From Chitinophagaceae bacterium UBA7600 (GTDB taxonomy: Bacteria > Bacteroidota > Bacteroidia > Chitinophagales > Chitinophagaceae): a stretch of 64,000 nucleotides of DNA. The DNA is taken from assembly GCA_002478885.1 (NCBI GenBank), contig DLKC01000025.1, forward strand, positions 1-64,000, given 5' to 3'. Position 1 is the first letter of the stretch. Every line of letters begins with the position of its first letter. Shown piece after piece: positions 1,268-61,977 of the stretch. A program made the translations under genes and the position numbers. Under the pieces are notes generated by a model. It did not search any database and was not told where the DNA came from. It saw nothing but the letters and a program-made list of their open reading frames with translations.

Positions 1268-1319
1268 ATGTTCCCGGCTTTTGCACTTCTGGCAACATCG
1301 TTGCGTCGCACACTTGTAC
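1268..1319 (+). repeat. 54-bp intergenic repeat, copy 1a (type A core)
   Basis: Core at 1300-1319 (GTTGCGTCGCAC, then ACTTGTAC). The left arm TTCCCGGC and middle block GGCAACATC are present. It is in sense orientation, starting about 14 nt after the MBL/rhodanese stop codon, and faces copy 1b 44 bp further on. Confidence 0.85.
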
Positions 1320-1363
1320 TGTTGCCCTTTACTGAAAAGTTTATTGCTGAATAAAGCGGTGGC

Positions 1364-1420
1364 GCAGAAGCGAGTGACACAACAAAAGCCCGATGGGAAT
1401 TCAAAAGCCTGCTCCATAAA
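1364..1420 (-). repeat. 54-bp intergenic repeat, copy 1b (type B core)
   Basis: Core at 1364-1383 reads GTTGTGTCACTC on the minus strand, the B variant. The unit abuts the stop codon of the acyltransferase gene at 1423 in its sense direction. With 1a it forms an inverted pair between two convergent genes. Confidence 0.75.
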
Positions 1421-1422
1421 AC

Positions 1423-2307
1423 TTACACCACGAGTTTGCCATATTTTTCTTCGTCGAACTCAAACTTCCACCGGCGATGGCTCCAAAGATAGCAGGAAGG
1501 ATTATTGCGAATCGATTGTTCTACAAACTGCATCATCTGCCTCGTGATTTCTCCGTGAGGCAGGCTGCGTGGATCGGTGGTGAGTAAAACCATATCTGTT
1601 TTGTAGTAACCTCTTTTTACTTTATAGAAATTGCACATCACCACGGCTGTATCTGATATTTTTGCTGTGCGCTCAGGCCCTTTTACGATGGGCGTCATCT
1701 TGCCGAAGAACTTTGTCCAGTAAGCTTTTGACGGATCGCCCGGGTTTTGATCGCCCACTAACGCAAGACAATACTGTGTTTTACTGTAAGGGAGAAACTT
1801 ATTACTGAAATCTGTTGCGGGCACCAGAATAGCGCCAAATCTTTTTCGCATGTATATAAATGCCCGGTCAAATATTTTATTGGTTATGGGCATGTAAACG
1901 GTAATCAGCGGATACTCGAACTGGTGAGAATAACCTGCATTTGCAAACTCCCAATTAAAAAAATGGCCCGAGTGTAACTGCACTTTTTTACCAGTCTTAT
2001 ACAAATCGTTCACTACTTCAAAATTGCCGGTATATCTTTTTTCCAGTTCTTTTTCGGTCATGGAAAAAAGTTTGATTGTTTCAATAAAATTGTCGATAAA
2101 CCCTTTGTAGAAATCGCGCTCGATTTTCGCTCTTTCAGCCGCTGTTTTTTCAGGAAAAGCGATCAGGAGGTTACCGGCAACAACGTCTCGCCTGTAACGG
2201 ATAACATGATAAATAAGAAAAGAAATGCCATCACTTAAAATGTACAGCACGCACCACGGCAAAAGAGAGAGCAGGTATAAAAAACCAAATACGATATAAT
2301 ACATCAA
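1423..2307 (-). CDS. Lysophospholipid/lipid A acyltransferase, LpxL/HtrB family
   Basis: 294 residues. The protein has an N-terminal membrane anchor (about residues 3-35) and the family HX4(D/E) catalytic motif as GHFFNWE near residue 115. The C-terminal YLWSHRRWK segment is typical of late acyltransferases. The family transfers an acyl chain from acyl-ACP to a lipid A precursor at the cytoplasmic face of the inner membrane; in Bacteroidota it is also annotated more loosely as a lysophospholipid acyltransferase, so the exact acceptor is open. The gene converges on the MBL/rhodanese gene, with two facing repeat copies between them. Upstream nadB lies on the same strand about 60 bp away, so co-transcription is possible. 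Confidence 0.85.
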   Translation of the reverse strand: MMYYIVFGFLYLLSLLPWCVLYILSDGISFLIYHVIRYRRDVVAGNLLIAFPEKTAAERAKIERDFYKGFIDNFIETIKLFSMTEKELEKRYTGNFEVVNDLYKTGKKVQLHSGHFFNWEFANAGYSHQFEYPLITVYMPITNKIFDRAFIYMRKRFGAILVPATDFSNKFLPYSKTQYCLALVGDQNPGDPSKAYWTKFFGKMTPIVKGPERTAKISDTAVVMCNFYKVKRGYYKTDMVLLTTDPRSLPHGEITRQMMQFVEQSIRNNPSCYLWSHRRWKFEFDEEKYGKLVV

Positions 2308-2370
2308 TTATTTATTTCGGGTTGCATTTGGAAATAACAATCCTGTTTAAAAACCTGTGCATGCCAGGCA

Positions 2371-3987
2371 TTAAAGTACCACATTTTGCAAAAGGCTGCT
2401 CTTTTGCGGATGGTCTGTATTGAAGTGTAAGCCCCTGCTTTCTTTTCTGAATTCGGCGCCTTTCACAATCAGGTATCCAACGGTTATGATGTTTCTCAGC
2501 TCACATAACTGCGGAGAAACTTTTGTAGCCTGGTATAACTGTTCCGTTTCCTCATGCAGCAAATCGAGACGTTTCATGGCGCGGTTCAAACGCACATCGG
2601 TGCGAACGATACCAACATAATCGCTCATAATCTGCTGCAATTCTTTCTGGCTTTGTGTGATAAGAATCATCTCTTTGGGGTCTGTTGTGCCCTTTGCATT
2701 CCAATCGGGGATATTATCGATCCGGTCGTTGGCGAAAAGATCGGGGTTCTCCCCTGCACTTCGTACAGAGTCCAGAAATGCACGGTGTCCAAATACCATC
2801 GCTTCCAGCAAGCTGTTGCTCGCAAGGCGGTTTGCCCCGTGCAACCCGGTACTCGCGCATTCACCGGCCGCATATAAATTAACGATCGACGTACGTGCGC
2901 ATTCATCGGTTTTTATTCCGCCGCAGCTATAGTGTGCGGCGGGTGCAACAGGAATCATGTTGTGCATCACATCGATACCAATGCTTTTGCATTTTTCATA
3001 AATATTTGGGAAATGGTGAAGAAATTTTTCTTTATCGAGGTGCCTGCAATCAAGATAAACATGTTCGGTACCGGTACGCTTCATTTCGTTATCAATTGCC
3101 CGGGCAACAATATCGCGTGGTGCAAGGTCTTTGCGCGGATCATATCGCTCCATAAACGCCTCACCGTCTTTATTGCGGAGAATGCCGCCATCGCCGCGAA
3201 CAGCTTCTGTTATCAAAAACGACGGTGATATGCCCGGCTCATACAGTGCTGTTGGGTGAAACTGTATAAACTCCATATTTTCTATACGCCCCTTTGCCCT
3301 GTATACCATAGCAATGCCATCGCCGGTAGCAATTTTCGGATTGGTAGTTGTTCTATAGGCCTGTCCGCAACCACCACTCGCCATAAGGGTTATGCCGGAT
3401 AATATTTTTTCTATCTTATTGGTGAGTAGGTCCAGCACATATACGCCGTAACAGGTGATATCTGTTGTTGATTTGGTTACAAGGTATCCAAGGTGATGTT
3501 GCGTAATAATGTCGAGCACAAAACAATGGTTCAATATTTCCACATTTTTTAATAAATAAACTTCTTCAAGCAATGCCCTTTCCATTTCCTTGCCGGTAAC
3601 ATCTTTGTGATGCAGTATGCGGTGCTCGCTGTGCCCGCCTTCCATACCCAGTGAATATTCGCCTTGCGCATCTTTGTCAAAACGTGCACCATATTCAATA
3701 ATTTCCCTTATACGCTCGGGACCTTCTTTCACCACTATTTCCACCACCGCTTCATTGCACAAACCATCTCCGGCGATCAGGGTGTCTTCGATGTGTTTTT
3801 CAAAGCTGTCATTCTCTTCGTCCCACACACCGGCGATACCTCCCTGTGCGTACTTCGTATTGGTTTCATCGGCATGCGTTTTTGTAATAACAATTACCTT
3901 CTTCTCCGGAAAATGCTGTGCAACTTTTATCGCATAACTAAGACCAGCAATTCCTGACCCGATCACTAAAAAATCTGTTTTAAACAT
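2371..3987 (-). CDS. nadB: L-aspartate oxidase
   Basis: 538 residues, the normal length for NadB. An N-terminal FAD-binding GSGIAG motif lies at residues 9-14, followed by the YAQGGIAGVW segment. The HYSCGGI motif of the active-site region and the ASNSLLEAMVFG segment place it in NadB rather than in succinate dehydrogenase SdhA. The enzyme oxidises L-aspartate to iminoaspartate, which NadA uses to make quinolinate for de novo NAD synthesis in the cytoplasm. No nadA or nadC is visible here, so the pathway genes are not clustered in this window. The 660 bp upstream region contains one orphan repeat copy. Confidence 0.95.
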   Translation of the reverse strand: MFKTDFLVIGSGIAGLSYAIKVAQHFPEKKVIVITKTHADETNTKYAQGGIAGVWDEENDSFEKHIEDTLIAGDGLCNEAVVEIVVKEGPERIREIIEYGARFDKDAQGEYSLGMEGGHSEHRILHHKDVTGKEMERALLEEVYLLKNVEILNHCFVLDIITQHHLGYLVTKSTTDITCYGVYVLDLLTNKIEKILSGITLMASGGCGQAYRTTTNPKIATGDGIAMVYRAKGRIENMEFIQFHPTALYEPGISPSFLITEAVRGDGGILRNKDGEAFMERYDPRKDLAPRDIVARAIDNEMKRTGTEHVYLDCRHLDKEKFLHHFPNIYEKCKSIGIDVMHNMIPVAPAAHYSCGGIKTDECARTSIVNLYAAGECASTGLHGANRLASNSLLEAMVFGHRAFLDSVRSAGENPDLFANDRIDNIPDWNAKGTTDPKEMILITQSQKELQQIMSDYVGIVRTDVRLNRAMKRLDLLHEETEQLYQATKVSPQLCELRNIITVGYLIVKGAEFRKESRGLHFNTDHPQKSSLLQNVVL

Positions 3988-4646
3988 GAGCTCTGTTTAC
4001 TTATTTAATTGTTGACTGGCAGCGTCGTTTTTGTGTTGCCGGCACTGGTATTTCATGTCGTCGCCTGTTGGCGCTATAGTGCCGGTTTTATATTCCACCA
4101 CAACCGCCTTGCTGCGCACTGTACCAGCCGTACAAGTGAGTGACACAACAAAAGCCCGATGGTTATTCTACTGCCGGTAAAATAACCAGCAGCAGTTTAA
4201 ATACAAACTAACAAAAGATTTGCTAACCGATATTATTTTATTTAAGGTCAAAACAGGTAGTTGATACCGGCCATTGCGTGTAAAACCCCGCTGAAAATGG
4301 TATCGACTACGTGCCCGCACCGCATTTGCAACCTGTATTTTGCAGTCGCATTTATGAAATTTTTGAAACTGGATAAAACAAATGAAACCTTATTGAAGCA
4401 TGTGAAAAATCACGGATCAAATGGTGAGAATACACTTTTTAAAACATGTTGAACAGCAGTACATTGCAGTATAATTAAAGGCCGTTGCTAACCTATCTTA
4501 CTTTTTTGCGGCCGATGCAAAACAACCTGCCCTTTACCCTTAAAAGGCTTGTTACAACAGCACCACTCCATGATTTTCTGCATTAACCAGGGGTTATTAT
4601 TTGCCCATTCGGTAAATCTTTTAATTAACCTAAAAAAACAAACACC
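3988..4646. other. Intergenic region between divergent nadB and the 738-aa gene
   Basis: No convincing gene. It holds repeat copy 2 at 4130-4185 and a possible decayed copy at about 4036-4075 (CCGGC followed by TCGCCTGTTG). An open frame at 4261-4452 begins with TTG, has no family resemblance I know, and is not accepted as a gene. Promoters for both flanking genes must lie here, but I could not identify a clear TTTG/TAnnTTTG pair. Confidence 0.6.
4130..4185 (-). repeat. 54-bp intergenic repeat, copy 2 (type B core)
   Basis: Core at 4130-4149 is the B type (minus strand GTTGTGTCACTC then ACTTGTAC). The left arm TTTTACCGGC is at the high-coordinate end. This copy is not adjacent to a stop codon; it lies about 140 bp upstream of nadB. 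Confidence 0.8.
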
Positions 4647-7176: not shown

Positions 7177-7190
7177 CGAGGTTTTTCTTT

Positions 7191-7243
7191 TGGAGCCCGG
7201 CAACAAAAATTTAATCGGCTTTTCTTGCGTCGCACTCTTGTAC
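7191..7243 (+). repeat. 54-bp intergenic repeat, copy 3 (type A core)
   Basis: Core at 7224-7243, with left arm GAGCCCGGC at 7192-7200. It is sense-oriented and begins 15 nt after the DUF1360-like stop codon. It separates that gene from the small CNCG gene. Confidence 0.85.
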
Positions 7244-7306
7244 GCTTAGTAATTTCATTGGGCAGAAAAAACACCATATAAACAAAAAATTAAAACCGTT
7301 TAACCT

Positions 7307-7561: not shown

Positions 7562-7665
7562 AATTCCTTATCTCTCCTTTGATAAAAAAACAGTTGCAAT
7601 ACGGCATTTTCATGGGCTTAGCTGAGCAACGTGCCTGTATTGCCATGACGCATAGCGTGCAGAAA

Positions 7666-7720
7666 GCATAAGTGTGCGACGCAAGCGAAGTTGAACAGCA
7701 CTACTGAAGCCGGGCCCAGC
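7666..7720 (-). repeat. 54-bp intergenic repeat, copy 4 (type A core)
   Basis: Core at 7666-7685. The left arm GGGCCCGGC lies at about 7709-7717, immediately after the ispG stop at 7727. Sense orientation relative to ispG. The end of the core is degenerate (ACTTATGC). Confidence 0.85.
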
Positions 7721-7726
7721 AAAATT

Positions 7727-9742
7727 CTACGCAGGTTCCACCCAGGCTTCGTTTTCGCGGAGTAAATTAATGAGTTCATCAACTGCCACCTCGCTATCAA
7801 CATTGCGTTTTACTACTTCTTTGCCTTTATATAAGGTGATCTTGCCAACGCCGCTACCAACGTAGCCAAAATCGGCATCGGCCATTTCGCCGGGACCATT
7901 TACGATGCAGCCCATAATCGCAATCTTAACGCCCTTCAGGTGATTGGTGCGTGAACGGATTTTTGCTGTTGTTTCCTGCAGTTCGAACAAAGTGCGGCCG
8001 CAACTCGGGCAACTGATATACTCTGTTTTGGAAATGCGGGTACGCGTAGCCTGTAAGATGGCAAAAGCCGTGGAGTTAATAAATTGCTCCGGCGTTTTAT
8101 TGTTGAGATAATTTCTGCCGGATGCGTTTTGTTCCCTGGCCGCGGACGAAATATCATAACTCTTTTGCTGCATGCCCAGGCTTATACCATCGCCAAATCC
8201 ATCGAGCAACAAAGCGCCGCATTCTGTTGCATAATGAATGAGGTGTTCGTCGGCTGTTTGCCAGCGGCTGTCGCACATAATCACTACCGGGTTTTTAATA
8301 TCGCGGTTCATCAGTTCGAGGAACATACGACGCACAGATGGCATTGCATGTTGATTGGTTGAACTTAAGCAAATCACTACTGTCGGGTCATTGGATAATT
8401 CGGCCAGGTAAGTAAAATCGTTTAATGCTGTTTCATCATTGAAGCAATCGATCATTACAAAATTGAGCGTGCTGCTCTTCCAGCTGCCATGCAGGTAGCC
8501 GCTGCCGTTGAATATGGGAAAGTATTTTGTTTTGTCTTTAGCAAGGTTCCAAATGGCGGGATATACCAACACTTTTAATGTGCCCGGCAATTCAAAGTCC
8601 ACCAAGGCATGGCCGCTGAAAATATAGTCGGCGGCAGCGTCGCTGATATTCCATTTATCGGTTGCAGTATTGTAAGTATAACCCACACTTTGCAAAGATT
8701 CGGGTGTTATGTGAGCCAGTTTGCTTAGGTCGGCAATAACGACCGGTACGTGAGTACCGCCAATATTATCGACGACAAAAGTTTGCCTGCGTTTGTAGGC
8801 AAAAGGCGTATATGGAAGGTGAACAATTGCGGGTATCTCACCGTCTTTATTTACGCTGTTGGCGTGGTAACGTTTAACAAGGTCGCGGCAGACCGGAATC
8901 TCCAGTTCAGGATCCTCTGTCAGCGACACCCTGATCGTATCGCCAATACCATCTTCCAGCAAAGTGCCAATACCTGCCGCACTCTTTACGCGGCCATCTT
9001 CTCCATCGCCAGCTTCGGTAACGCCGAGATGCAATGGATAGCATTCGCCAAATTCAGCATCCATTTGCTGAATCAGCAAGCGGTATGCCTGCACCATTAC
9101 CTGCGGGTTGCTTGACTTCATGCTTAGAACAATATTGTGGTAGGCTTCGGCCCGGGCAATACGCAAAAACTCCATTGCGCTTTCTACCATGCCCATTGGC
9201 GTATCGCCATAACGGCTCATGATACGGTCGCTTAAACTGCCATGGTTGGTGCCGATACGCATTGCAGTTCCGTATTCCTTGCAAATTTTCAACAGTGGCG
9301 TAAAGCGTTCCCTTATCCGCTCAATTTCTTCGGCATATTCCCCATCGGTGTATTCCAATTGCTCAAACTTTTTCTTATCAACGTAATTGCCCGGATTCAC
9401 TCTCACCTTTTCTACAATTCTCGCAGCAATCTCTGCAGCATTTGGTGTAAAGTGAATGTCGGCGATCAAGGGCGTGTTATACCCTCTTTTACGCAGTTCA
9501 TTTTTTATGTTGAGTAAATTTTCCGCTTCTTTTTTTGAAGGGGCGGTAATACGTACCAGTTCGGCGCCCGCTTCAATGCAACGAATACTTTGCTCCACTG
9601 TAGCAATCGTATCCATTGTATCAGTGGTGGTCATTGTTTGTACGCGTATGGGGTTATGATTACCGAGCAACAGGTCACCGATTTTCACTTCCCTTGTTTT
9701 TAACCTGCTGTATGCCGTGAGTGAATTACAATACAATTGCAT
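7727..9742 (-). CDS. ispG: 4-hydroxy-3-methylbut-2-en-1-yl diphosphate synthase, long form
   Basis: 671 residues, compared with about 370 for the E. coli enzyme. Residues about 1-290 form the TIM-barrel domain (VQTMTTTDTMDT, ADIHF, VRVNPGN, GTNHGSLSDR). An insertion of about 270 residues follows, as in the Bacteroidota/Chlamydia/plant type. The C-terminal domain carries the [4Fe-4S] ligands as CPSCGR and MGCIVNGPGE. The enzyme reductively opens methylerythritol cyclodiphosphate to HMBPP in the non-mevalonate isoprenoid pathway in the cytoplasm. The gene is about 115 bp downstream of the batC-like gene on the same strand. Confidence 0.97.
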   Translation of the reverse strand: MQLYCNSLTAYSRLKTREVKIGDLLLGNHNPIRVQTMTTTDTMDTIATVEQSIRCIEAGAELVRITAPSKKEAENLLNIKNELRKRGYNTPLIADIHFTPNAAEIAARIVEKVRVNPGNYVDKKKFEQLEYTDGEYAEEIERIRERFTPLLKICKEYGTAMRIGTNHGSLSDRIMSRYGDTPMGMVESAMEFLRIARAEAYHNIVLSMKSSNPQVMVQAYRLLIQQMDAEFGECYPLHLGVTEAGDGEDGRVKSAAGIGTLLEDGIGDTIRVSLTEDPELEIPVCRDLVKRYHANSVNKDGEIPAIVHLPYTPFAYKRRQTFVVDNIGGTHVPVVIADLSKLAHITPESLQSVGYTYNTATDKWNISDAAADYIFSGHALVDFELPGTLKVLVYPAIWNLAKDKTKYFPIFNGSGYLHGSWKSSTLNFVMIDCFNDETALNDFTYLAELSNDPTVVICLSSTNQHAMPSVRRMFLELMNRDIKNPVVIMCDSRWQTADEHLIHYATECGALLLDGFGDGISLGMQQKSYDISSAAREQNASGRNYLNNKTPEQFINSTAFAILQATRTRISKTEYISCPSCGRTLFELQETTAKIRSRTNHLKGVKIAIMGCIVNGPGEMADADFGYVGSGVGKITLYKGKEVVKRNVDSEVAVDELINLLRENEAWVEPA

Positions 9743-9858
9743 AATATTTATTTGCCGGTTTGCGTACGATCATCTTTTCAATTGCAAAAATAACACTTGG
9801 TGACCCAATAAAGTTTTGAGAAACGGTGATATTGTAAACGGCAAAAGTCAGACGTGGG

Positions 9859-10458: not shown

Positions 10459-10481
10459 ATGCTTGTATTGATCGTTATTGT

Positions 10482-10536
10482 TTTGAACCGGGCATTTTCT
10501 GCATTGGTCATCACCTGTTGCGTCGCACTCTTGTAC
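10482..10536 (+). repeat. 54-bp intergenic repeat, copy 5 (type A core)
   Basis: Core at 10517-10536, left arm TTTTGAACCGGGC at 10481-10493. It lies between the batB and batC genes but in the antisense orientation. Confidence 0.85.
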
Positions 10537-10580
10537 TGCTATTCATTATCGAGTAAGACTCTTACTTCAGCTACCGGGTG

Positions 10581-11597
10581 TTAAAAGTTATCCTGGCCTT
10601 TCCTGGTTAACCTCTTTCTCTCCGGCACAAAAATTTCACCGATCAGTATCAGCAGCGCAATGCCAATGAAGAAAGGCGTAAAAGACAAATATTCTTTTTC
10701 GCCCCCGCTTTCTATCAGCTTTTTATCTATGCCATCCAGTTCTTTGCCAACGACGGTTGAAGTATTCAATACATTGTCAAGATGAAAATAATTGCCGCCT
10801 GTTGCCGATGCAATATTCACCAGTTCTTCCTCACCCAGTTTGCTGATGACCGTTTTTCCATCTGCATCTGTCTTATACGACCCTGTACCCGGTTCGGTAA
10901 TAGGTGAGCCTTCCGCCGTGCCAATACCAACGGTATAAACAATCACACCCTGGTCAGACAATGCCTTTGCAGCCCTCACCGCATCCGGGTCATGGTCTTC
11001 GCCATCGGTGATTAAAACGATTGCCTTATGTGATTTCTCTTTTGTATCAAGAGATGTTCCGCATAACTGCAATGCGCTACTAATGACTGTTCCCTGCACG
11101 GGCACGGCATCGGGGGTGGCGTTGGATAAAAAGAGTTTTGCCTCGGCCAGGTCGGGTGTTAACGGCATTTGTAAATAGGCCTGCCCTGCAAACAAGACCA
11201 GTCCAACCCGGTCGTTGGATGAGTGATCGATAAGAGCACTAACCAGTTGTTTTGCGCGTTCGAGGCGCGTTGGCTTTATATCACTGCTTAACATACTTTT
11301 GCTTACATCAAGCGCTATCATAATATCTATGCCTGCTGTTTGCTCTTTGTCGCCTGAAACAGGTTTGCGAAAATTTGTAGCGGCCAGCACCAGGAAAGCA
11401 AGCGCGATAAGCGTGGCAATAAATTTTATTTTGTAAAGCTTTGCAGCATGTTCAGAAGTAAGGCGGTTCACCAGCTCTTCGTCGCCGATTATATTTTTTG
11501 TTTTTTGTTTCCAGCGAAGCACCATAATGAAGATGAGCACCAATGGTACAAGTAGCGCCAGGCCCCATAAAAATTCGATGTGTTCAAATGATAGCAT
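10581..11597 (-). CDS. batB: VWA-domain membrane protein, BatB/BatA-like
   Basis: 338 residues from the chosen start at 11597 (MLSFEHIEFLWGL). A longer in-frame start at 11636 exists, but its extra 13 residues precede what looks like the conserved family N-terminus. The protein has two N-terminal membrane helices (about residues 8-27 and 55-72). The von Willebrand A domain carries an intact MIDAS motif DVSKSM and downstream TDGEDHD. A C-terminal membrane helix lies near residues 310-328. This helix-helix-VWA-helix layout is that of BatA and BatB; a family tree would be needed to separate them. The following TPR gene suggests BatB. The product should sit in the inner membrane with the VWA domain in the periplasm. 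Confidence 0.85.
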   Translation of the reverse strand: MLSFEHIEFLWGLALLVPLVLIFIMVLRWKQKTKNIIGDEELVNRLTSEHAAKLYKIKFIATLIALAFLVLAATNFRKPVSGDKEQTAGIDIMIALDVSKSMLSSDIKPTRLERAKQLVSALIDHSSNDRVGLVLFAGQAYLQMPLTPDLAEAKLFLSNATPDAVPVQGTVISSALQLCGTSLDTKEKSHKAIVLITDGEDHDPDAVRAAKALSDQGVIVYTVGIGTAEGSPITEPGTGSYKTDADGKTVISKLGEEELVNIASATGGNYFHLDNVLNTSTVVGKELDGIDKKLIESGGEKEYLSFTPFFIGIALLILIGEIFVPERKRLTRKGQDNF

Positions 11598-11719
11598 AGA
11601 ATGAATGTTGCAATGTACAAGCATTGAGCCAATCATTAGAAAGCTTAATTTTTTTTGTGATAAAATTAGTTACTCATTTCCTGTTGCCTCAATGCAGGCA
11701 GCCTAATGCTGCTACAAGT

Positions 11720-11775
11720 GCTGAAGTGTGCGACGCAAGTAAAGCCTCATTTTTATTCTACGGACGGGAACATAA
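11720..11775 (-). repeat. 54-bp intergenic repeat, copy 6 (type A core)
   Basis: Core at 11720-11739; left arm TTTATGTTCCCGTCC, diverged from CCCGGC. Sense-oriented downstream of the GH16 gene and its terminator. Confidence 0.8.
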
Positions 11776-11797
11776 AAAAATTCGCGGCTCCCATCAA

Positions 11798-19983: not shown

Positions 19984-20053
19984 GGATATGTATTACCTAT
20001 AAGACACATCGCAAACCTTTTTATACTCCTTTTCATTTTCCTTTTAAAAGATT

Positions 20054-20109
20054 TTATGTGCCAGGCATAAGTGCAACTATTAAACAGCTGTTGCGTCGCA
20101 CACTTCAGC
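20054..20109 (+). repeat. 54-bp intergenic repeat, copy 7 (type A core)
   Basis: Core at 20090-20109 (ending ACTTCAGC), left arm TATGTGCCAGGC. It faces copy 8. Confidence 0.85.
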
Positions 20110-20291
20110 GCCATCAATTACTTCAGCAATACACTTTTCATTGGCATCATTGTATCAACCTCGGCTTTACGTAATACAATACTTTGCTTACATATTATTG
20201 AAACTCCGGTAAGCATTCATTCATTGCAGCATATCAAGCTGCAATAGTCTTTGGTATTTTTCTGTTTATTAAAGCCGCACAGAGCGCTACA

Positions 20292-20350
20292 GTACAAGTG
20301 TGCGACGCAACGGAAGGTCAGCTGATATTACAGCGCAAGGCCCCAAAAAG
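20292..20350 (-). repeat. 54-bp intergenic repeat, copy 8 (type A core)
   Basis: Core at 20292-20311; left arm TTTTTGGGGCC on the minus strand. Sense-oriented, about 40 nt after the sigma factor stop codon. It faces copy 7. Confidence 0.85.
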
Positions 20351-20389
20351 TTCAAAACTTTTATAGAATCTTTTGTCCTTGAGATTTGT

Positions 20390-23536: not shown

Positions 23537-23874
23537 TGTGTTTATTTTATGATCCTGAAATGTTTGCTGATTGATGGAAGATTGGCAGGACTGCCCGTGA
23601 CGATTGCATCCACCCTGCTCTTGAAGTATTGTGCTGTGGCTTTTAACCGGTACGTTACAATATAATTTTGGCTTGCGCATGCAGTCGTGTTATGCATGTG
23701 ACACGCAGCAGGAATTTTTATACCCCAATTTTTATATAATTTTCTTTTTTTGGGCAAAGGTTTTACAGGATAGACCATCTTGTTTAACGTCGAAGGCCAG
23801 ATATTAATAAACGCTAGACAATAAAGCATAAGAAGTCGGTAGGCCGGATTTAGCAGGAAGGAGATTTTAAAGAT

Positions 23875-23927
23875 GTGTTACCCGACAGACAATCGTTGAG
23901 CAGCATCGTTGCGTCGCACTCTTCAAC
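23875..23927 (+). repeat. 54-bp intergenic repeat, copy 9a (type A core)
   Basis: Core at 23908-23927 (ending CTCTTCAAC); left arm TGTTACCCGAC. It faces copy 9b. Confidence 0.85.
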
Positions 23928-23958
23928 GCTTTGTTCTTTGCCGGGCTTTTCACGGAAC

Positions 23959-24014
23959 GTACAAGAGTACTACGCAACCGGCGATGCCACGAGCACTTGT
24001 GCCCGGGCAAATAA
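23959..24014 (-). repeat. 54-bp intergenic repeat, copy 9b (degenerate core)
   Basis: Core at 23959-23978 reads GTTGCGTAGTAC then TCTTGTAC on the minus strand, so the palindrome is broken. Left arm TTTGCCCGGGC and middle block TGGCATC are well kept. Sense-oriented, directly after the terminator of the 107-aa gene. Confidence 0.8.
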
Positions 24015-24021
24015 GGATTAT

Positions 24022-28231: not shown

Positions 28232-28304
28232 TGTAATTCAAATCAGCGATTAACAAGCGTTAGCTTAATGAGCACTGCAGTTGATTTACAGCAGCGTGGC
28301 ATTA

Positions 28305-28358
28305 TTTTGTCCCGGCACAGTCGCCTCATGGCATCTTCGTTGCGTCGCACTCTTGTAC
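28305..28358 (+). repeat. 54-bp intergenic repeat, copy 10 (type A core)
   Basis: Core at 28339-28358, left arm TTTTGTCCCGGC, middle block TGGCATC: all three blocks intact. It lies between the beta-propeller lipoprotein gene and icmF, antisense to both, with no partner. Confidence 0.88.
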
Positions 28359-28389
28359 TTTTATTTCACCGTTGAGCTTTTGCTGATCA

Positions 28390-29313: not shown

Positions 29314-29395
29314 GACAAAAATTCTATGGTTTGAATGTAAGCTTTTTTGTTATCAAGTTAGTCAGCAGTAATGAATGCCGCGTATTGGTAGGAAC

Positions 29396-29450
29396 GTACA
29401 AGTGAGTGACACAACAAAAGCTTCATAGCATTGCAGCAGCCGAGTTCATA
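29396..29450 (-). repeat. 54-bp intergenic repeat, copy 11 (type B core)
   Basis: Core at 29396-29415 is type B. The left arm TTTATGAACTCGGC starts directly at the T-run of the terminator. Sense-oriented downstream of the first S74/T9SS gene. Confidence 0.85.
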
Positions 29451-29484
29451 AAAATAAAAAAGCGGCACAGGTATGCGCCGCTTT
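29450..29484 (-). terminator. Intrinsic terminator of the first S74/T9SS gene
   Basis: On the minus strand AAAGCGGC-GCATACCTGT-GCCGCTT followed by TTTTATTTTT. It lies about 20 nt after the stop codon at 29505. Confidence 0.88.
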
Positions 29485-31601: not shown

Positions 31602-31821
31602 GTCAGCAAATTTTTAATTTAATGCCTACTTTTTTAAAGGGTATTCGGCAAATTCCCTTTTACCGGTAAATATGTCAAAGACGCGCATTACATCGATAAT
31701 GATGCAGTGTGCTGATCTTTTTTTATTTTATCGAATTGGGTTAAGCCTGAACTAAGTGCAACTAATTTTTTCGAACACGGCGGAGAACTCATTATTCAAT
31801 TACCATTGAGTCTTGTAATAC

Positions 31822-31876
31822 TTAGATACCAGCTGCTGATTACTGTGGCATCACCTGTTGCGTCGCAATCCGTTCA
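31822..31876 (+). repeat. 54-bp intergenic repeat, copy 12a (type A core, decayed end)
   Basis: Core begins at 31857 (GTTGCGTCGCA) but its last third (ATCCGTTCA) has decayed. Left arm ATACCAGC and middle block TGGCATC are present. It faces copy 12b. Confidence 0.75.
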
Positions 31877-32098
31877 TCGTCCGGGTCAAATATTGAGCTA
31901 ATGAATACGCTGAATGGTAAATAATTTTCGTCTTTTTCAAAAGTTAGCCTGGTGTTTAGTCGAGTGCCGTATTCTTTATTCAAAAATAGAAAAGGAAGAA
32001 AAAAAACTGCGCGTATAAATACGCAATTTTCTGTGCTGTTATACGATGGTCCGGTAAGGCAAACTGTTATTGGAACGTTGTTGCGTAAAGCTGCATAA

Positions 32099-32153
32099 GC
32101 TGAAGTGTGCGACGCAACAGCAGATGCCATACGTTACAAATGCCGGGCTCATA
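32099..32153 (-). repeat. 54-bp intergenic repeat, copy 12b (type A core)
   Basis: Core at 32099-32118 with TGGCATC and left arm TTTATGAGCCCGGC, all blocks intact. Sense-oriented, starting within the T-run of the preceding terminator. Confidence 0.88.
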
Positions 32154-32185
32154 AATAAAAAAGCGATACTGTAGTACCGCTTTTA
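32154..32185 (-). terminator. Intrinsic terminator of the second S74/T9SS gene
   Basis: On the minus strand AAAGCGGTAC-TACA-GTATCGCTT (one G-T pair) followed by TTTTATTT. It lies about 20 nt after the stop codon at 32204. Confidence 0.85.
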
Positions 32186-36522: not shown

Positions 36523-36580
36523 TCCCGCTTAAGATTGAAAGGCGTGTTCTATTGCTGTTATTGCTGCTCAGGGCGATGCA

Positions 36581-36634
36581 GTAAACGAGTGCGACGCAAC
36601 GAAGATGCCATTTGCTGTAATGTCGGGCACATAA
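36581..36634 (-). repeat. 54-bp intergenic repeat, copy 13 (type A core)
   Basis: Core at 36581-36600 (end altered to CTCGTTTAC), middle block TGGCATC, left arm TATGTGCCCGAC. Sense-oriented and joined directly to the gltD terminator. Confidence 0.85.
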
Positions 36635-36658
36635 AAAAAACCCGGCATAGAACCGGGT
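36632..36658 (-). terminator. Intrinsic terminator of gltD
   Basis: On the minus strand ACCCGG-TTCTATG-CCGGGT followed by TTTTTTT, about 28 nt after the gltD stop codon. Confidence 0.88.
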
Positions 36659-38188: not shown

Positions 38189-38220
38189 TATCAGTAACTT
38201 TTAAATTGACGATTTAATTT

Positions 38221-38276
38221 TTTATGAATCCGGCTCCAACGCTATTTGCGGCTTCCGTTGCGTCGCACTCTTGTGC
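38221..38276 (+). repeat. 54-bp intergenic repeat, copy 14a (type A core)
   Basis: Core at 38257-38276 (ending CTTGTGC), left arm TTTATGAATCCGGC. It lies 33 bp upstream of gltD in the opposite orientation and faces copy 14b. Confidence 0.87.
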
Positions 38277-38353
38277 CTGGGCAAGTGCATCAGCAGGCAC
38301 AATGTCTGGTTTGTCACTGCACATACAGCTTATGGACGACCGACGGCCGGAAC

Positions 38354-38390
38354 GCACAAGTGAGTGACACAACAGCCGATGCCCAAAGAA
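38354..38390 (-). repeat. 54-bp intergenic repeat, copy 14b (type B core, truncated by gltB end)
   Basis: Core at 38354-38373 is type B and the middle block GGGCATC is present. The expected left arm position is occupied by the gltB stop codon and last codons, so the unit is truncated or merges into the gene. Confidence 0.8.
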
Positions 38391-41300
38391 CTATTTGCCC
38401 ACAGCAACAGAAACTGCTTTTTGCTGAAGTACTTTTTTATAGTCAGTTGGAAATACTTTTATAAAATTCTTCAGTTGATTATCAAAATCAGACAGCACGA
38501 ATTGCGCTACGGTACTTCCGGTAAAATGCGCGTGCTTCTTCACCATTTCGTGCAATACCTGCGCATCGGCTTCATCCAGCGGATCGAGCTCTACCATTTC
38601 CATATTGCAGAGTGAGGCAAACTTTTGCTGCACATCATAAACATAGGCAACCCCACCGCTCATTCCTGCTGCGAAGTTGCGGCCTGTTGCGCCGAGAATA
38701 ACGGCAACACCACCGGTCATGTATTCGCAACCATGGTCACCCGTTCCCTCCACAACTACTTTTGCACCGGAGTTGCGCACACAGAACCTTTCGCCAGCTT
38801 TGCCGCGTATGAAGGATTCACCGCTTGTTGCACCATAAAAAGCAACATTACCAACTATAATATTTTCTTCGGGCACGTAAGTCGAATTCTTGGGTGGATA
38901 CACTATAAGCTTTGCACCGCTAAGGCCTTTGCCAAAGTAGTCGTTGGCATCGCCTTCGAGCTCAAGCGTTACTCCTTTTGTGTTGAATGCGCCAAAACTT
39001 TGACCGGCTGTTCCGGAGAATTTAAAATGAATTGTTTCATCCGGCAGCCCTTCTGCCTTGTATATTTTGGTGATCTCGTTAGAAAGAATTGTTCCTGCAG
39101 TGCGGTCTGTATTTTTAATTGCAAAAGAAGCGAACACTTTCTCCATCGAATCCAATGCAGGCTTTGCAGCCTTCAACAATTGCCAGTCTAATACGTCGGC
39201 AATACCATGATCCTGCTCTTCCTGTTTATAAAGGCCTACATACTCTGTTGCAGGTTCCTTGTAAAGTATAGGCGAAAGATCGAGCTTGCTGTATTTCCAG
39301 TGTGTTACATTTTCTCTTGCTTCGAGGCAATCGACCTGGCCAATCATTTCGTTAACCGTTCTAAAACCAAGTTCAGCCATAATCTCTCTTAATTCCTGCA
39401 CAATGAAACGGAAGAAATTAATTATGTGATCTGGATTACCGGTAAACCGTTTGCGGAGTTCGGGGTTTTGTGTAGCCACACCAACAGGGCAGGTATTCAG
39501 GTGACATTTACGCATCATAATACAGCCTTCAACAACAAGCGCAGCAGTAGCAACACCCCATTCTTCCGCACCTAACAATGCTGCAATCGCAACATCACGA
39601 CCAGTTTTCAACTGGCCATCTGTTTGCACGGTAACGCGGCTCCGAAGTTTGTTACGAACCAACGTCTGGTGTGTTTCGGCAAGACCGAGTTCCCACGGTA
39701 AACCGGCATGTTTGATAGAACTGATCGGCGACGCGCCGGTTCCGCCATCGTGACCGGAAATAAGCACTACGTCTGCTTTCGCCTTCGTAACACCTGCGGC
39801 AATCGTACCAACGCCAGCCTTTGAAACAAGCTTTACATTGATGCGTGCTGCACGGTTGGCATTCTTTAAATCAAATATCAATTGCGCTAGATCTTCTATA
39901 GAATAAATATCGTGATGCGGCGGCGGAGATATCAAGCCAACACCGGGAGTTGAGTGCCGGGTGCGCCCTATCCAGTCGTCTACCTTATGGCCAGGCAACT
40001 GACCGCCTTCACCGGGCTTTGCCCCTTGCGCCATTTTGATCTGCAATTCGTCGGCCTCTGTCAAATAGTAACTCGTCACACCAAACCTTGCAGACGCGAC
40101 CTGCTTGATTGCCGAACGCATACTGTCGCCGTTGGCCAATTGCTGGTAACGAATTTCATCCTCCCCACCTTCACCTGTATTGCTTTTACCACCTAAGCGG
40201 TTCATAGCAATCGCCAGTGTAGTGTGTGCTTCCCAGGAAATAGAGCCAAAGCTCATTGCTCCAGTAGCAAACCGCTTATAAATATTTTCTGCCGGCTCTA
40301 CTTCTTCGATAGCAATGGCCGGGCGATTTTTCTTAAACTTAAACAAACTGCGCAGTGTGCAGGCCTTTTCACTCTGGTCATTCACCAATTTAGAATACTT
40401 TTTAAAAGTATTGTAGTCATTCATTTTGGTTGAATACTGCAACAGGTGAATTGTCTGGGGATTAAATAAATGGAATTCACCCTTGCGTTTCCATTGATAC
40501 AGACCACCAACAGGCAATCTTTCCACGGGAATATCCTTTCTTGAAAATGCGAAGAAATGCTTTACGAGTGTTTCTTTGGCAATTTCATCGAGCCCCATTC
40601 CCTCAATGCGCGAAGTGGCGCCGGTAAAATATTTATTTACGACATCCTGGTTTAAACCGATGATCTCCATTATCTGCGCGCCTTGGTAAGACTGAAGGGT
40701 AGATATCCCCATTTTTGAAAACACTTTCAACAAACCATCGCAAACAGCTTTTACGTAGTTTTTCTTTAGTATTTCCGGATCTACGTCGGTTTCCAGTTTG
40801 CCGGTAATTTTCAGGTTACGTATTGTTGAAAGAGCGAGATAAGGGTTAATAGCTGTCGCGCCAAATGCAAGAAGACAAGCAAAATGATGCACTTCCCAAA
40901 CATCGCCGGCTTCTACAACAATACCTACTTTACCACGCAAGCCCTTTCTTATAAGGTGGTGGTGGACAGCCGCCGTCGCCAATAAAGAAGGCATTGCGGC
41001 ATGATCACTGTCAACCGCACGGTCGCAGAGCACAAGCACTTCAAATCCATCATTGACGGCATCTTCTGCATATCGACAAAGCCTGTCAAGACCTTTTTTT
41101 AAGGAACCAGGCTTGCCGTCTGCCCTAAAATAGGTCTGCAAGGTTTTTGCCTGAAAAATTCCGGTATCGATACTTCTTATTTTTTCCAGCTCATGGTTAG
41201 TTAACACCGGATGTTTCAACGCGACCGTGTGACAAGAAAGCGGGTCTTCACTCAGCAGGTTATCATTGTTGCCGACAAAAGCCGCAAGCGACATTACCAT

Positions 41301-46066: not shown

Positions 46067-46124
46067 GCCGCACGCTTCTGGAGTCAAATAAACCGATGTT
46101 TTTTTGTTGCCTGTTGATACAGGC

Positions 46125-46180
46125 GCACAAGTGTGCGACGCAACAGCAGCTGCCACCAGACATTTAGCCTGGTTCACAAA
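46125..46180 (-). repeat. 54-bp intergenic repeat, copy 15 (type A core)
   Basis: Core at 46125-46144, with minus-strand left arm TTTTGTGAACCAGGC and middle block TGGCAGC. It lies between the third usp gene and the P-type ATPase gene, opposite in orientation to both. Confidence 0.85.
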
Positions 46181-46257
46181 AGCCCCTTTACAAGGGCGTT
46201 AAACCACACTCTTACACGAAACTGCAATTACTTACTTTCCTGCATTAAATAAATAGC

Positions 46258-48750: not shown

Positions 48751-48765
48751 CGCAGTTTTAGTTTT

Positions 48766-48820
48766 TCGTGACCCCGGCTCTACCTCCCGTATCGACTGCT
48801 GTTGCGTCGCACACTTGTGC
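48766..48820 (+). repeat. 54-bp intergenic repeat, copy 16 (type A core)
   Basis: Core at 48801-48820 (ending ACTTGTGC); left arm CGTGACCCCGGC. Sense-oriented, starting 16 nt after the ATPase stop codon. Confidence 0.87.
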
Positions 48821-49006
48821 TGTAGGGCTACTTGCAGCAAACCCTCATCTTTCAAACAGAATCTGAAAACCATCGACGGTTGCCGGCTCGTGCCGAAAGT
48901 GAACGAACGTTTTAACTGTTCAAACCTGTATAAGAAAGCAAGCAAACCTTTCGCATTGAGTACAACAAAATCCGCCTGTCATAAAGTATAAGCGCCGGTA
49001 TAAACT

Positions 49007-49847: not shown

Positions 49848-49988
49848 CAGCCTGTCGCACATGCCTGTAAACTATAATCATTAATAATTGCTTCGCCCTA
49901 TCTGCTTTTAAAAAAATGCTACGAAACTTAAAGTACGCCGGCGTAATATGCACGCAAAAGCAACGAGCCGCCGCCCAAAGTTTCTGCC

Positions 49989-50043
49989 GTACAAGTGAGT
50001 GACACAACAGGTGATGCCATGCGCATAGTTGCTGGTTCCAAAA
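49989..50043 (-). repeat. 54-bp intergenic repeat, copy 17 (type B core)
   Basis: Core at 49989-50008 is type B. Middle block TGGCATC and left arm TTTTTGGAACCAGC are present. Sense-oriented downstream of the AI-2E permease gene. Confidence 0.87.
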
Positions 50044-50068
50044 AGACATTTACAGAAATTGGGTGGGA

Positions 50069-55273: not shown

Positions 55274-55619
55274 ATATTTTGATTTTGGTTTTTATCAGCT
55301 CCCAAAAACCTGTCTCATTTGCGAGTCAAAAATATAGTACGGCACCAACCTGCTTTATGACGCCTCTAACAACCCCGCATGATTTTAGTCAGGTATTCTG
55401 GCAGCAGCGACAAAAGCATTTTTTGGAACCCGGCTGCGAACCATCTGGAATCGCCGGTTGCGTCGCACTCTTCAGCTGCCGAAACGTAGCCGGGCAAATT
55501 TTAAACACGACTCTTTTATCATCGCATTAATTAGGCAATGCGTATTCCATGCTACTGGTAACCAGTATTAGCAAGTTCCCTCAACCTTATTTCATTATCT
55601 TGCCAAAAAAAATTTTTGA
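55274..55619. other. Divergent promoter region (Hsp20 / Gfo-Idh-MocA)
   Basis: No gene. It holds repeat copy 18. No CIRCE-like inverted repeat was seen upstream of hsp20. Confidence 0.55.
55421..55476 (+). repeat. 54-bp intergenic repeat, copy 18 (type A core)
   Basis: Core at 55457-55476 (ending CTCTTCAGC), left arm TTTTTTGGAACCCGGC. It lies between two divergent genes, so it follows no stop codon. Confidence 0.87.
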
Positions 55620-56627: not shown

Positions 56628-56681
56628 AAATTGCCTCACTCTTGGTTTATTCTGTTTGTGTTTTTCGCATAGTGATATGCA

Positions 56682-56736
56682 GTTGAAGAGTGCGACGCAA
56701 CAACAGCTGCCATTGGTGCGAAAGCCTGGTACAAAA
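56682..56736 (-). repeat. 54-bp intergenic repeat, copy 19 (type A core)
   Basis: Core at 56682-56701 (ending CTCTTCAAC), left arm CTTTTGTACCAGGC. Sense-oriented downstream of the GT4 gene. Confidence 0.87.
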
Positions 56737-56752
56737 GCTTTCAGCTGATATA

Positions 56753-58090: not shown

Positions 58091-58711
58091 TCAAAGAAAG
58101 GCGGCAAGCTGTTTGAAATGGAATATCTTATTGGTGATATCAATATCGGGGTGAACCCGGAGTGTGTCGTATAAAACCCAATCAATGCCGCTTTGTTTCG
58201 CTGCTTGTATTTCTGAATGCGGATCGTCTCCCACGACCAGCACATCACTTTTTAAATAACTATGCCGTGAAAGTATTTCTTTGAACATTTTCTTTTTAGT
58301 TAGGAAAGATAAAGCTGGGTCTACAATGTGTATCTCCTCAAAGTCTTTTTCAATACCCAATTGCTTTATTTTGCTTCGCTGCAATGTTGTAAAACCTGTG
58401 GTGACCAAAAATTTCGGGAGCGCTATTTTTTTTATTTCAACATAGTCTTCAAAGGGAGTCATAGGCTTTTCGTAAGTAATGTTCTTCAATAGCTCAAAAC
58501 CTTCGCTGGAAAGCTTCTCACTAAAATTGAATTCCGCAGCCACCCGCTGGTAAGGTTTGCGCATAATTTCTTTTTTTACCTCTTCAAAACTTCCCTGGTA
58601 CTCACCAGATTCGCTGATGAGTTGAAATAAATTGCAGAATAAATCCTGACCGATTTGCTGAACCGGATAAATCGTGTTGTCAAGATCGAGTATGAGTGCC
58701 TGCTTTGGCAT
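58091..58711 (-). CDS. HAD superfamily hydrolase
   Basis: 206 residues. Motif I is DLDNT (DxDxT, Asp9 and Asp11), motif II is VTTG near residue 105, motif III is the Lys in TKKKMF, and motif IV is GDDPHSE. The first helical cap (about 16-85) places it in the C1 cap group, similar to pyrimidine 5'-nucleotidases and phosphoglycolate phosphatase-like proteins. The substrate is unknown. It lies between the CapK-like gene and the GT4 gene on the same strand, about 140-150 bp from each. Confidence 0.88.
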   Translation of the reverse strand: MPKQALILDLDNTIYPVQQIGQDLFCNLFQLISESGEYQGSFEEVKKEIMRKPYQRVAAEFNFSEKLSSEGFELLKNITYEKPMTPFEDYVEIKKIALPKFLVTTGFTTLQRSKIKQLGIEKDFEEIHIVDPALSFLTKKKMFKEILSRHSYLKSDVLVVGDDPHSEIQAAKQSGIDWVLYDTLRVHPDIDITNKIFHFKQLAAFL

Positions 58712-58797
58712 AATGAATTGTCTTCTGAATGTTATAACTATACGCCAATATTAGTTCGATAAAAAATAAGCAGCTTTGTTTCCGTAAAGTCACCACA

Positions 58798-58853
58798 GTT
58801 TAAGACTGTGACGCAACAGTTGATGCCACAACTACCGCTGCTGGCTTCACAAC
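58798..58853 (-). repeat. 54-bp intergenic repeat, copy 20 (intermediate core)
   Basis: Core at 58798-58817 reads GTTGCGTCACAG on the minus strand, with only one of the two symmetric A-to-B changes. Middle block TGGCATC, left arm TTGTGAAGCCAGC. Sense-oriented downstream of the CapK-like gene. Confidence 0.82.
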
Positions 58854-58860
58854 TACTTTG

Positions 58861-60255: not shown

Positions 60256-60363
60256 TTTAAAAGCGCAGCTTCAACACTGCAAAAGATTTTCGACGTCAGT
60301 AAATATTATTTCTATTTGAACCAAAAATAAGCAGGCTTGTTAAATTTGCATAAACTCTCTTTT

Positions 60364-60543
60364 ATGGGCATCTGGCGGCAAATGGCAGAATACCTCTACA
60401 TAAAAAAACGTGATCCAAATAGTCCACGTACACAATGGATTAAATATATGCACGGTATGAACCGAATTTCGCTGATCATGTTCGTGGTCGCACTTCTCAT
60501 TATGCTGCTTAAGTTTATTATTCTTCCTTTGTTTGGCAAATAG
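60364..60543 (+). CDS. Small membrane protein, 59 aa (DUF6728-like)
   Basis: 59 residues from the ATG at 60364 (MGIWRQMAEYLYIKKRDPN); the frame opens 27 bp earlier with TTG, which is not favoured. The N-terminal half is soluble and basic (YIKKRDPNSPRTQWIKYMHGMNR), the C-terminal half is one membrane helix (about 39-55) ending in LFGK. The layout is like the small Bacteroidota DUF6728 group; this assignment is from memory. Function unknown. It is divergent from the CapK-like gene and convergent with lpxB. Confidence 0.72.
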   Translation: MGIWRQMAEYLYIKKRDPNSPRTQWIKYMHGMNRISLIMFVVALLIMLLKFIILPLFGK

Positions 60544-60560
60544 CTTTTACCACAATTCAA

Positions 60561-60614
60561 TTTGCTACAGGCAGCAGTCCCCGTGTAATCGCTGGTTGTG
60601 TCACTCACTTCAGC
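60561..60614 (+). repeat. 54-bp intergenic repeat, copy 21 (type B core)
   Basis: Core at 60595-60614 is type B (GTTGTGTCACTC then ACTTCAGC). Left arm TTTGCTACAGGC. Sense-oriented, beginning 18 nt after the stop of the 59-aa gene. Confidence 0.82.
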
Positions 60615-60650
60615 GTTCTGAACTTCAATGAGCCATTGCTGTTGCCGTTG

Positions 60651-61775
60651 TTAACGTGGAATGCCTTTTACAAAAAGGTATATACTTTCAGCGGCTTTTG
60701 CTGAAGCATCGCCACCCCGGCTAAGCAGTTGTTTCAGTTCGGCGTAATCTTTTTGAATAGCGGATGCTTTTTGCCGGTTGTTGAGCAGCAGGTCAAGCTC
60801 TCTTTCAAGATTATCAATGGTAAGATCATTTTGGATGAGCTCCGTTACAACAAGCTTATCCATGATAAGATTAACCAACGAGATATATTTTATTTTGATG
60901 AGCCTTTTGGCAATCTGGTAGCTGATGTTACTGCCTTTGTAACAAACGACCTCAGGCACCGCGAACAATGCCGTTTCCAATGTTGCGGTGCCGCTTGTAA
61001 CAAGTGCCGCCACAGATTTTGCCAGCAACGCGTAAGTTTCATTTCGAACAGAAGAAACGTTGTGGTACGCTTGTAACAATGGTTCATAAAAACCATCTTC
61101 CTGACCCGGCGCTTTTGCAACAATAAACTCATAACCGGGAAACGATTTACTCACTTCAAGCATAATGGGCAGCTTCTTTAATATCTCCTGTTTGCGACTG
61201 CCTGGCAAAAGTGCAATAACTGATTTGCCGTTTGTAATTTCACTGACGGATGTTGGATTTTCTTTAAACTTATCGATTACCTGTACCAGTGGATGACCAA
61301 CATATTCCACGTCCCAGTTCCAACGGTTTTTATAGTAGTCTTTTTCGAAAGGAAGAATCACCAGCATCTTGTCTATATACTGCTTCATCTTTTTAACGCG
61401 GCCTTCTTTCCAGGCCCAAACCTGCGGAGAAATATAGAATACAATCTTATAGCCCTGGGCTTTGGCCCATTGCGCCACGCGGAGATTGAATCCCGGGTAA
61501 TCTATCAGCACGAGCACATCGGGTTGAAAAAGCTGAACATCATCCTTGCAAAATTTTAGATTGTTCAGTATCGTTCGCAGGTTCATAACAACTTCAACAA
61601 AACCCATGAAAGCAAGCTCTTTGTAATGCTTTACAATTAAACCACCTGCGCTTTGCATAAGATCGCCACCCCAGCACCGTATTTCAGCCTGTTCATCGAG
61701 TCTTTTCAACTCTTTGATGAGGTTGCTGCCATGAAGGTCGCCACTTGCTTCGCCCGCAATTATATAATACTTCAT
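60651..61775 (-). CDS. lpxB: Lipid-A-disaccharide synthase
   Basis: 374 residues, the usual length. The N-terminal motif GEASGDLHGSNLI and the segment CWGGDLMQSAGG are those of LpxB (GT19). The C-terminal part carries VTSGTATLETAL and VCYKGSNISYQIAKRLIKIKY. The enzyme joins UDP-2,3-diacylglucosamine and lipid X to lipid A disaccharide at the inner membrane. It shows that the organism makes lipid A, in accord with the LpxL-like acyltransferase near the start of the window. Confidence 0.95.
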   Translation of the reverse strand: MKYYIIAGEASGDLHGSNLIKELKRLDEQAEIRCWGGDLMQSAGGLIVKHYKELAFMGFVEVVMNLRTILNNLKFCKDDVQLFQPDVLVLIDYPGFNLRVAQWAKAQGYKIVFYISPQVWAWKEGRVKKMKQYIDKMLVILPFEKDYYKNRWNWDVEYVGHPLVQVIDKFKENPTSVSEITNGKSVIALLPGSRKQEILKKLPIMLEVSKSFPGYEFIVAKAPGQEDGFYEPLLQAYHNVSSVRNETYALLAKSVAALVTSGTATLETALFAVPEVVCYKGSNISYQIAKRLIKIKYISLVNLIMDKLVVTELIQNDLTIDNLERELDLLLNNRQKASAIQKDYAELKQLLSRGGDASAKAAESIYLFVKGIPR

Positions 61776-61924
61776 TCCGGTTTGGTTCTTAGAAGTGTGA
61801 TTTCGTTCTTTAAAAATAATAGCTGCAAAATACGATTAGTTTTAGTTGCCCTGTGAGCGGCGGCGAAATGTGTGTATGGATATAACAAGAGGAAACGCAT
61901 AGCTTGCCACTTGCAGTTGCCACA

Positions 61925-61977
61925 GTTGAAGAGTGCGACGCAACAGCAGCCGCACAGCGAACCGATGCCGGGTTCAA
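61925..61977 (-). repeat. 54-bp intergenic repeat, copy 22 (type A core)
   Basis: Core at 61925-61944 (ending CTCTTCAAC), left arm TTTTTTTGAACCCGGC, the closest to consensus. Sense-oriented, starting within 10 nt of the DinB stop codon. Confidence 0.88.

Follow-up and report, generated by a model that had tools for sequence, protein, structure and literature searches.

Intergenic regions of Chitinophagaceae bacterium UBA7600 carry a small dispersed element, which we met as 26 copies in a 64,000-nucleotide stretch of its genome (contig DLKC01000025.1, positions 1 to 64,000; the whole of this stretch is hereafter the window) and which recurs more than a thousand times genome-wide. Its core hardly changes from copy to copy whereas the rest of the element drifts, and it therefore looks like a maintained recognition site and not like ordinary repeat debris. 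The explanation we favour, to which we give an even chance, is that of a small dispersed intergenic element whose 12–20 bp core is retained as a DNA–protein recognition site. An initial annotation of the window had noticed the repeats but overlooked their convergent pairing, their patchy spread through the family and the near-invariance of the core; its observation is confirmed and its interpretation partly supported.

A near-constant core, intact and split

An exact search of the complete genome of the window (G000, 5.47 Mb) with the 12-mer core GTTGYGTCRCWC returned 1,333 matches, compared to one for the reversed control, and the 20-nt core at up to two mismatches returned 1,820 compared to none, which corresponds to roughly one copy per 3 kb. 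In the window, the 26 dispersed copies of the initial annotation were recovered in the same number, and the family proves to be larger than that annotation indicated.

Among near-exact copies (no more than one mismatch across the 15 scored positions), core positions 1–11 are changed in 1 of 157 in G000 and in 6 of 196 and 2 of 218 in two further genomes, G163 and G081 (9 of 571 in all), whereas the arms of copies within one genome differ, in an ungapped comparison, at 61–64% of positions on average. Of the 463 unsplit copies in our tally whose long right half of the core is intact, 458 also have an intact left half, including 116 of 117 in G000.

Cores that are physically interrupted behave differently. 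A 17-nt palindrome, TGCCGGCTTAYCCGGCA, occurs 22 times in G000 (L313–L334), always between two core halves and nowhere else in the genome (19 placed by automatic flag, the other three, which have altered right halves, by reading); it is preceded by CGATAG in 5 of the 22 and by (A/G)TAG in 9, and a looser version of its pattern has one match each in five other genomes of 294. The 22 elements with this lineage-specific hairpin module of about 23 nt all carry it at one and the same place in the core, and their arms are unrelated, left-arm identity being 0.351 compared to 0.379 among plain copies. Left halves are intact in 15 and right halves in 14 of the 22 split cores. Where the long right half is intact, so is the left in 5 of 7, compared to the 116 of 117 unsplit copies in G000 (Fisher P = 0.008), and where only the right 6-mer is required, in 10 of 14 (P = 4 × 10−4). 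We read these altered halves as the trace of a constraint that is lost once the core is split. Related events are seen between rpsD and rpoA, where G189 and G285 have an intact copy, that of G113 is split by another palindrome, and in G241 the copy has been replaced. In genus g113 (L171, L274 and L300), short GC-rich palindromes also lie near elements, one of them within a core. A generic search for split cores returned mostly false matches.

Architecture, core types and copies in the window

A profile built from 155 copies in 456 kb of G000 (the window and 20 further stretches) is conserved from about −42 to +40 relative to the core start, roughly 84 bp, and flat outside; units had previously been given as 52–59 bp long, which overlooked the right arm. 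Its parts are, in order, a T-run (about −38 to −33) and NNCC(C/A)GGC, sequence that varies between copies, a short word (for example TGGCATC or TTAAGC), the core and a right arm that finishes near TCAGCAA. The core consensus is GTTG(C/T)GTC(G/A)C(A/T)CNCTT, then GTRC or CARC. Of the blocks that the initial annotation listed at fixed spacing, TGGCATC is present but alternates with forms such as TTAAGC, and the left arm is degenerate. A TG preceding NNCC(C/A)GGC was assignable in 261 of the 482 copies analysed, and 198 of these have it 33 or 34 nt 5′ of the core. Arm words and core words occur in mixed combinations, and ten-base periodicity among the conserved positions gave no peak (permutation P = 0.51). 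A sigma-54 promoter reading of TGGCATC-N4-TTGC was rejected, as GG is present in fewer than half of the copies.

The core comes in two main types, GTTGCGTCGCAC and GTTGTGTCACTC, which the initial annotation had not told apart; GTTGCGTCGCAATCCGTTC is a minor third. The main types differ at three linked bases: positions 4, 8 and 10 read C-G-A (C-type) in 328 and T-A-T (T-type) in 151 of the 482 copies, with three others, although the pattern by which these copies were selected would have let intermediates through. GYG-T-CRC is an odd palindrome, and its two halves change in concert. The third type, GTTGCGTCGCA(A/T)T(C/A)CGTTC, was counted 13 times in 720 kb of G081 (L219–L256), five times in 400 kb of G163 and twice in 456 kb of G000; the window copy at 31815–31899 is of this type, and is perhaps the unit that had been called truncated. 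In some elements and pairs, the middle is replaced or filled by another filler sequence that is rich in words resembling AGCTATGAGC and GCTCATAGC (L301, in the G241 rpsD–rpoA gap; L213 and L205, in G163).

In the window, the core pattern [GC]TTG[CT]GTC[GA]C[AT]C fits 23 copies, and three with altered cores (23936, 31815 and 58775) were added after being seen by eye; the total of 26, spanning 1258 to 61986, depends on the choice to admit these three. Searching the window for GTTGCGTCGCAC at up to two mismatches gave 25 matches, compared to a mean of 4.4 and a largest value of 10 in 100 shuffles, although a few of the 25 are chance matches within genes and T-type copies escape this search. The element copies, with strand and core, are:

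1258–1342, +, C-type core GTTGCGTCGCACACTTGTAC; convergent with the 1341–1425 copy, the pair filling the gap of two convergent genes
1341–1425, −, T-type core GTTGTGTCACTCGCTTCTGC
4107–4191, −, T-type
7182–7266, +, C-type, CTTGCG start
7643–7727, −, C-type, CTTGCG start; directly 3′ of the GcpE (ispG) stop
10475–10559, +, C-type; antisense, in the VWA–TPR gene gap
11697–11781, −, C-type, CTTGCG start
20048–20132, +, C-type; convergent pair (221 nt) with the 20269–20353 copy
20269–20353, −, C-type
23866–23950, +, C-type; convergent with the 23936–24020 copy
23936–24020, −, altered core GTTGCGTAGTAC
28297–28381, +, C-type
29373–29457, −, T-type
31815–31899, +, third core type GTTGCGTCGCAATCCGTTCA
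32076–32160, −, C-type
36558–36642, −, C-type (CTCGTTTAC); T-run doubles as the tail of an upstream terminator-like hairpin
38215–38299, +, C-type; convergent C/T pair with the 38331–38415 copy
38331–38415, −, T-type
46102–46186, −, C-type
48759–48843, +, C-type
49966–50050, −, T-type
55415–55499, +, C-type
56659–56743, −, C-type
58775–58859, −, altered core GTTGCGTCACAG
60553–60637, +, T-type
61902–61986, −, C-type

Placement, pairing and spread

We counted overlaps of pattern-matching copies with open reading frames (ORFs) of at least 150 codons, called by a simple ORF caller, in stretches of G000, G163 and G081. Copies inside ORFs number 9 of 157, 9 of 191 and 14 of 218, compared to 127, 153 and 172 expected, and for 27 of these 32 the called ORF start is no more than 100 nt away. 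Copies are thus far from equally frequent within genes, and the initial claim that they lie outside them is upheld in the stretches of all three genomes. It had also held that the region has no transposase, and indeed none of the 40 non-overlapping window ORFs (kept from 52) matches a transposase family in Pfam.

Comparison with relatives, found through GcpE, suggests that the element adds length between genes. The VWA–TPR gap, which carries a copy, measures 122 nt in the window; in the 25 relatives with both genes adjacent it ranges from 2 to 116 nt, with a median of 20, gaps being measured between tblastn matches, which can overstate their length. The convergent gap at 1254–1423 (168 nt), occupied by a C/T pair, is shorter in 15 of 16 relatives with the genes adjacent and at most 300 nt apart, and longer in one (L043, 225 nt); in five further relatives, at least 700 nt separate the two genes.

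Where neighbouring copies are at most 260 nt apart, 70 pairs are convergent, 4 divergent and none tandem in the stretches of the three genomes. Convergent pairs have their T-runs outward and their right arms inward, and near-identical pairs are few. Paired copies account for 48 of 155, 74 of 188 and 18 of 89 in G000, G163 and G081, the remainder (107, 114 and 71) being single. In G163, 32 of the 37 convergent pairs are mixed, one core being C-type and the other T-type (binomial P = 6 × 10−7), and spacings recur, with 63 found eight times, 70 three times and a cluster at 130–145, whereas such mixing is not preferred in G000 (10 of 24 compared to 8.2 expected) or G081 (5 of 9 compared to 4.5). 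At L010, two near-identical T/T pairs (9725–9795 and 11374–11444) lie 1.65 kb apart, apparently through local duplication. Strand polarity along the chromosome is roughly balanced in 20 stretches of G163.

The 20-mer is present in 146 of 294 same-family genomes and 68 of 101 genera (reversed controls, 0), with 0 to 1,691 copies per genome and a wide spread inside genera: 0 and 246 in g4; 0, 108, 0, 11 and 0 in g7; 1,378 and 1,691 in g81. Decayed copies are scarcely in evidence in six zero-copy congeners of genomes that bear the element, with 11 matches at up to two mismatches compared to 8 in controls (matches/controls: G126 2/3, G003 3/1, G006 2/2, G199 0/0, G292 4/0 and G213 0/2). Among 80 loci of relatives found through GcpE, just one (L053, 5 copies) is dense and four others have one match each; the locus of the top match (L028, 83% identical) has no copy in 20 kb. 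In IMG/VR, 11 stretches on 10 viral contigs (L302–L312) have one or two exact 20-mer cores, and could be prophage borders or host DNA.

Evidence for sites shared between species is thin. Of 14 orthologous genes testable on their 3′ side in G163 and G081, 6 have a copy in both genomes, 5 in one and 3 in none, which is about chance level; the six shared sites keep the same orientation, and at one of them a C-like core (GTTGCGTCACAC) stands opposite a T-type core. In genus g113, copies occupy the same gaps of two or three species, between rpsD and rpoA and beside a UbiA-family gene, enolase and lepA.

Weighing the explanations

Under the recognition-site explanation, small non-autonomous elements of about 84 bp, single or in convergent pairs, would have inserted between genes and so spread through this genome long ago; the 12–20 bp core would be kept because it is read by a protein, sequence-specific and probably dimeric, that binds or processes DNA, and the arms (T-run, CCGGC and TCAGCA) would give weaker contacts or context. 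The sequences themselves show the copy number, the intergenic placement, the convergent pairing, the linked core types, a core that stays nearly constant as the arms drift, the lengthened VWA–TPR gap and the more frequent changes in split cores, whereas the reading protein, action as DNA and the route of spread are inferred. The recurrence of sites at the same genes in genus g113 also counts in favour of this explanation. Orientation between tandem genes is near neutral (sense 48, 59 and 26, antisense 35, 54 and 15 in G000, G163 and G081) and, together with the lack of a consensus RNA fold described below, points to action as DNA.

Several points weigh against this explanation. As 148 of the 294 family genomes are without the 20-mer, any function would be dispensable. 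No protein partner for the core was found; a search for a recurrent neighbour gene at 69 low-copy loci gave 26 protein clusters spanning at least two loci, largely orthologous neighbourhoods in related genomes and a pair of RAYT genes, and no candidate owner. The ungapped comparison inflates the arm differences, the 571 near-exact copies leave out 9, 8 and 3 two-mismatch sequences (some of them chance or third-type), and the cross-species orthology is based on few cases, namely the 14 gene pairs on their 3′ side. Altered split cores may come from damage at insertion itself. Intactness is slightly lower for single than for paired copies in each of the three genomes: among cores with at most two mismatches, 97 of 114, 101 of 122 and 162 of 175 singles are mismatch-free, compared to 50 of 58, 75 of 84 and 48 of 48 in doublets. 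Finally, the low decay of the core could stem from a process that rewrites it.

In this last case, which we regard as a tentative possibility, the core would be a cassette rewritten in place by copying (enzyme-guided conversion or single-strand exchange), so that more than 1,000 cores per genome stay identical while the arms drift. In-place rewriting would account for the linked core types nearly without intermediates, for the C-like core opposite a T-type core at one orthologous site pair, for the mixing of arm and core words, and for the hairpin module at the same position in 22 elements.

Alternatively, the family could be a true REPIN/RAYT system, in which the convergent pair is a replicating hairpin copied by a RAYT, a Y1 transposase; we consider this unlikely. 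PMC3116915, PMC8049555 and PMC8266576 describe REPINs as folding, mostly occurring as doublets, decaying when single and accompanying RAYTs; in strain SBW25, 61% of REPs are in doublets. Convergent pairing and the recurring C/T spacings in G163 fit, and the slightly lower intactness of singles may do so as well. RAYT genes lie near some copies in G000, G081, G028 and G185, as does a Y1 gene in G241. In G000, the RAYT start is 72 nt downstream of a core start; in G081, a split core lies just upstream of a RAYT, and a RAYT or Y1 gene is within about 600 bp at 3 of the 69 low-copy loci (70 sites, 30 genomes).

RAYT as the owner of the element, promising at first, did not hold up. Many of 21 RAYT flanks viewed by eye carry other palindromes, and among the best 30 RAYT loci, the element is recognized within 100 nt at two (in G000 and, split, in G081). 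RAYT matches do not track copy number, being present in 18 of 25 genomes with at least 50 copies and in 161 of 269 others (P = 0.29, by our tally), and in four of the 25 (G024, G094, G245 and G295) the thresholds used give no RAYT and no Y1_Tnp. The copy on the lepA side in G241 is also present in two congeners and so probably predates the adjacent Y1 gene. The core alone, moreover, is without a fold (two 20-nt cores at −0.6 and −1.2 kcal/mol, z of 0.77 and 0.03). As a separate observation made by eye, many of the RAYT-like Y1 transposase genes (L138 in G000; L140–L164) have their own flanking palindromes, which vary from genome to genome.

The element resembles REPINs and BIMEs of Pseudomonas and Escherichia coli, as portrayed in the same papers, in being intergenic and present in hundreds to thousands of copies, with inverted doublets of variable loops, a short conserved core and discrete core groups. 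It differs in its unfolded core, its arms conserved out to 84 bp, its lack of a RAYT link and the lack of a GTAG tag, of which the profile shows none beside the conserved core, and may also differ in its mostly single copies and in singles that are only slightly less intact than pairs; the (G/A)TAG-preceded palindrome exists only as the insert in G000 cores (9 of 22). The analogy drawn by the initial annotation, REP/BIME in layout but with a sequence of its own, is supported for this dense, intergenic, dispersed family. Its statement that no Bacteroidota element of this design has been described holds within the literature searched, although CGTC-tagged palindromes of a different structure are reported from Bacteroidetes. 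In PMC3733652, these have stems of 8–9 bp, loops of 4–5 nt, a terminal CGTC and, in most cases, a CCA tail; like our element, with its CGTC or TGTC, they have no dedicated transposase, and they are mostly inverted dimers, whereas here CGTC/TGTC is the centre of a short palindrome and no such stem-loop is present.

Six core strings, searched forward and reverse, appear in none of the 5.39 million papers covered, and subject searches found no description of the element, nor did a term search of the RepRanger paper (PMC12306157); subscription literature is outside this coverage.

ERIC and other enterobacterial repeat units are intergenic elements of about 100 bp inserted between genes; our element is not known to be related to them in sequence.

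It is quite unlikely, in our assessment, that the element is a roadblock terminator or insulator, in which a core-bound protein would stall polymerase with the T-run in the RNA–DNA hybrid. The geometry is suggestive, with the T-run about 31–38 nt 5′ of the core in every gene context and, where both neighbouring genes share the orientation of the element, the core at a median of 41–51 nt past the stop; some copies also follow terminator-like hairpins. Hairpins below −8 kcal/mol, however, precede only 0–45% of copies, depending on class, sense and antisense numbers between tandem genes are similar, and some copies lie between rpsD and rpoA, where stopping would harm.

A DNA uptake sequence (DUS/USS) retained by biased uptake in transformation would likewise be short, near-exact, dense (about one per 3 kb here) and clade-limited, with clade-specific copy numbers. 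Uptake words are common within genes, whereas the element is rare in them, and its structured 84-bp context, convergent pairs and very few one-off cores are unexpected of an uptake word, which makes this explanation improbable. We give still less credence to a classical miniature inverted-repeat transposable element, the two inverted ends of a lost DDE transposon: it would explain why the T-runs of convergent pairs face outward and their right arms inward, but the majority of copies are single and near-identical pairs are few. That the element encodes a structured RNA or a small peptide is hardly credible, for although a start-codon-like TG often follows the T-run, 71 low-copy elements have no consensus base pair on either strand, a scan of the window against Rfam gives no match at gathering thresholds (a comparison that the initial annotation had proposed) and the frame from TG to core is not maintained (121, 98 and 42 across the three frames).

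If cores are rewritten in place, they would represent a new way of homogenizing dispersed DNA. On the recognition-site explanation, the short exact core would allow its partner protein to be fished for directly, with the split cores as ready-made loss-of-function controls. More than 1,000 copies with a core that resists change across genera, beside copy-free congeners with hardly any decayed traces, make the family a natural experiment in the retention or loss of dispersed sites.

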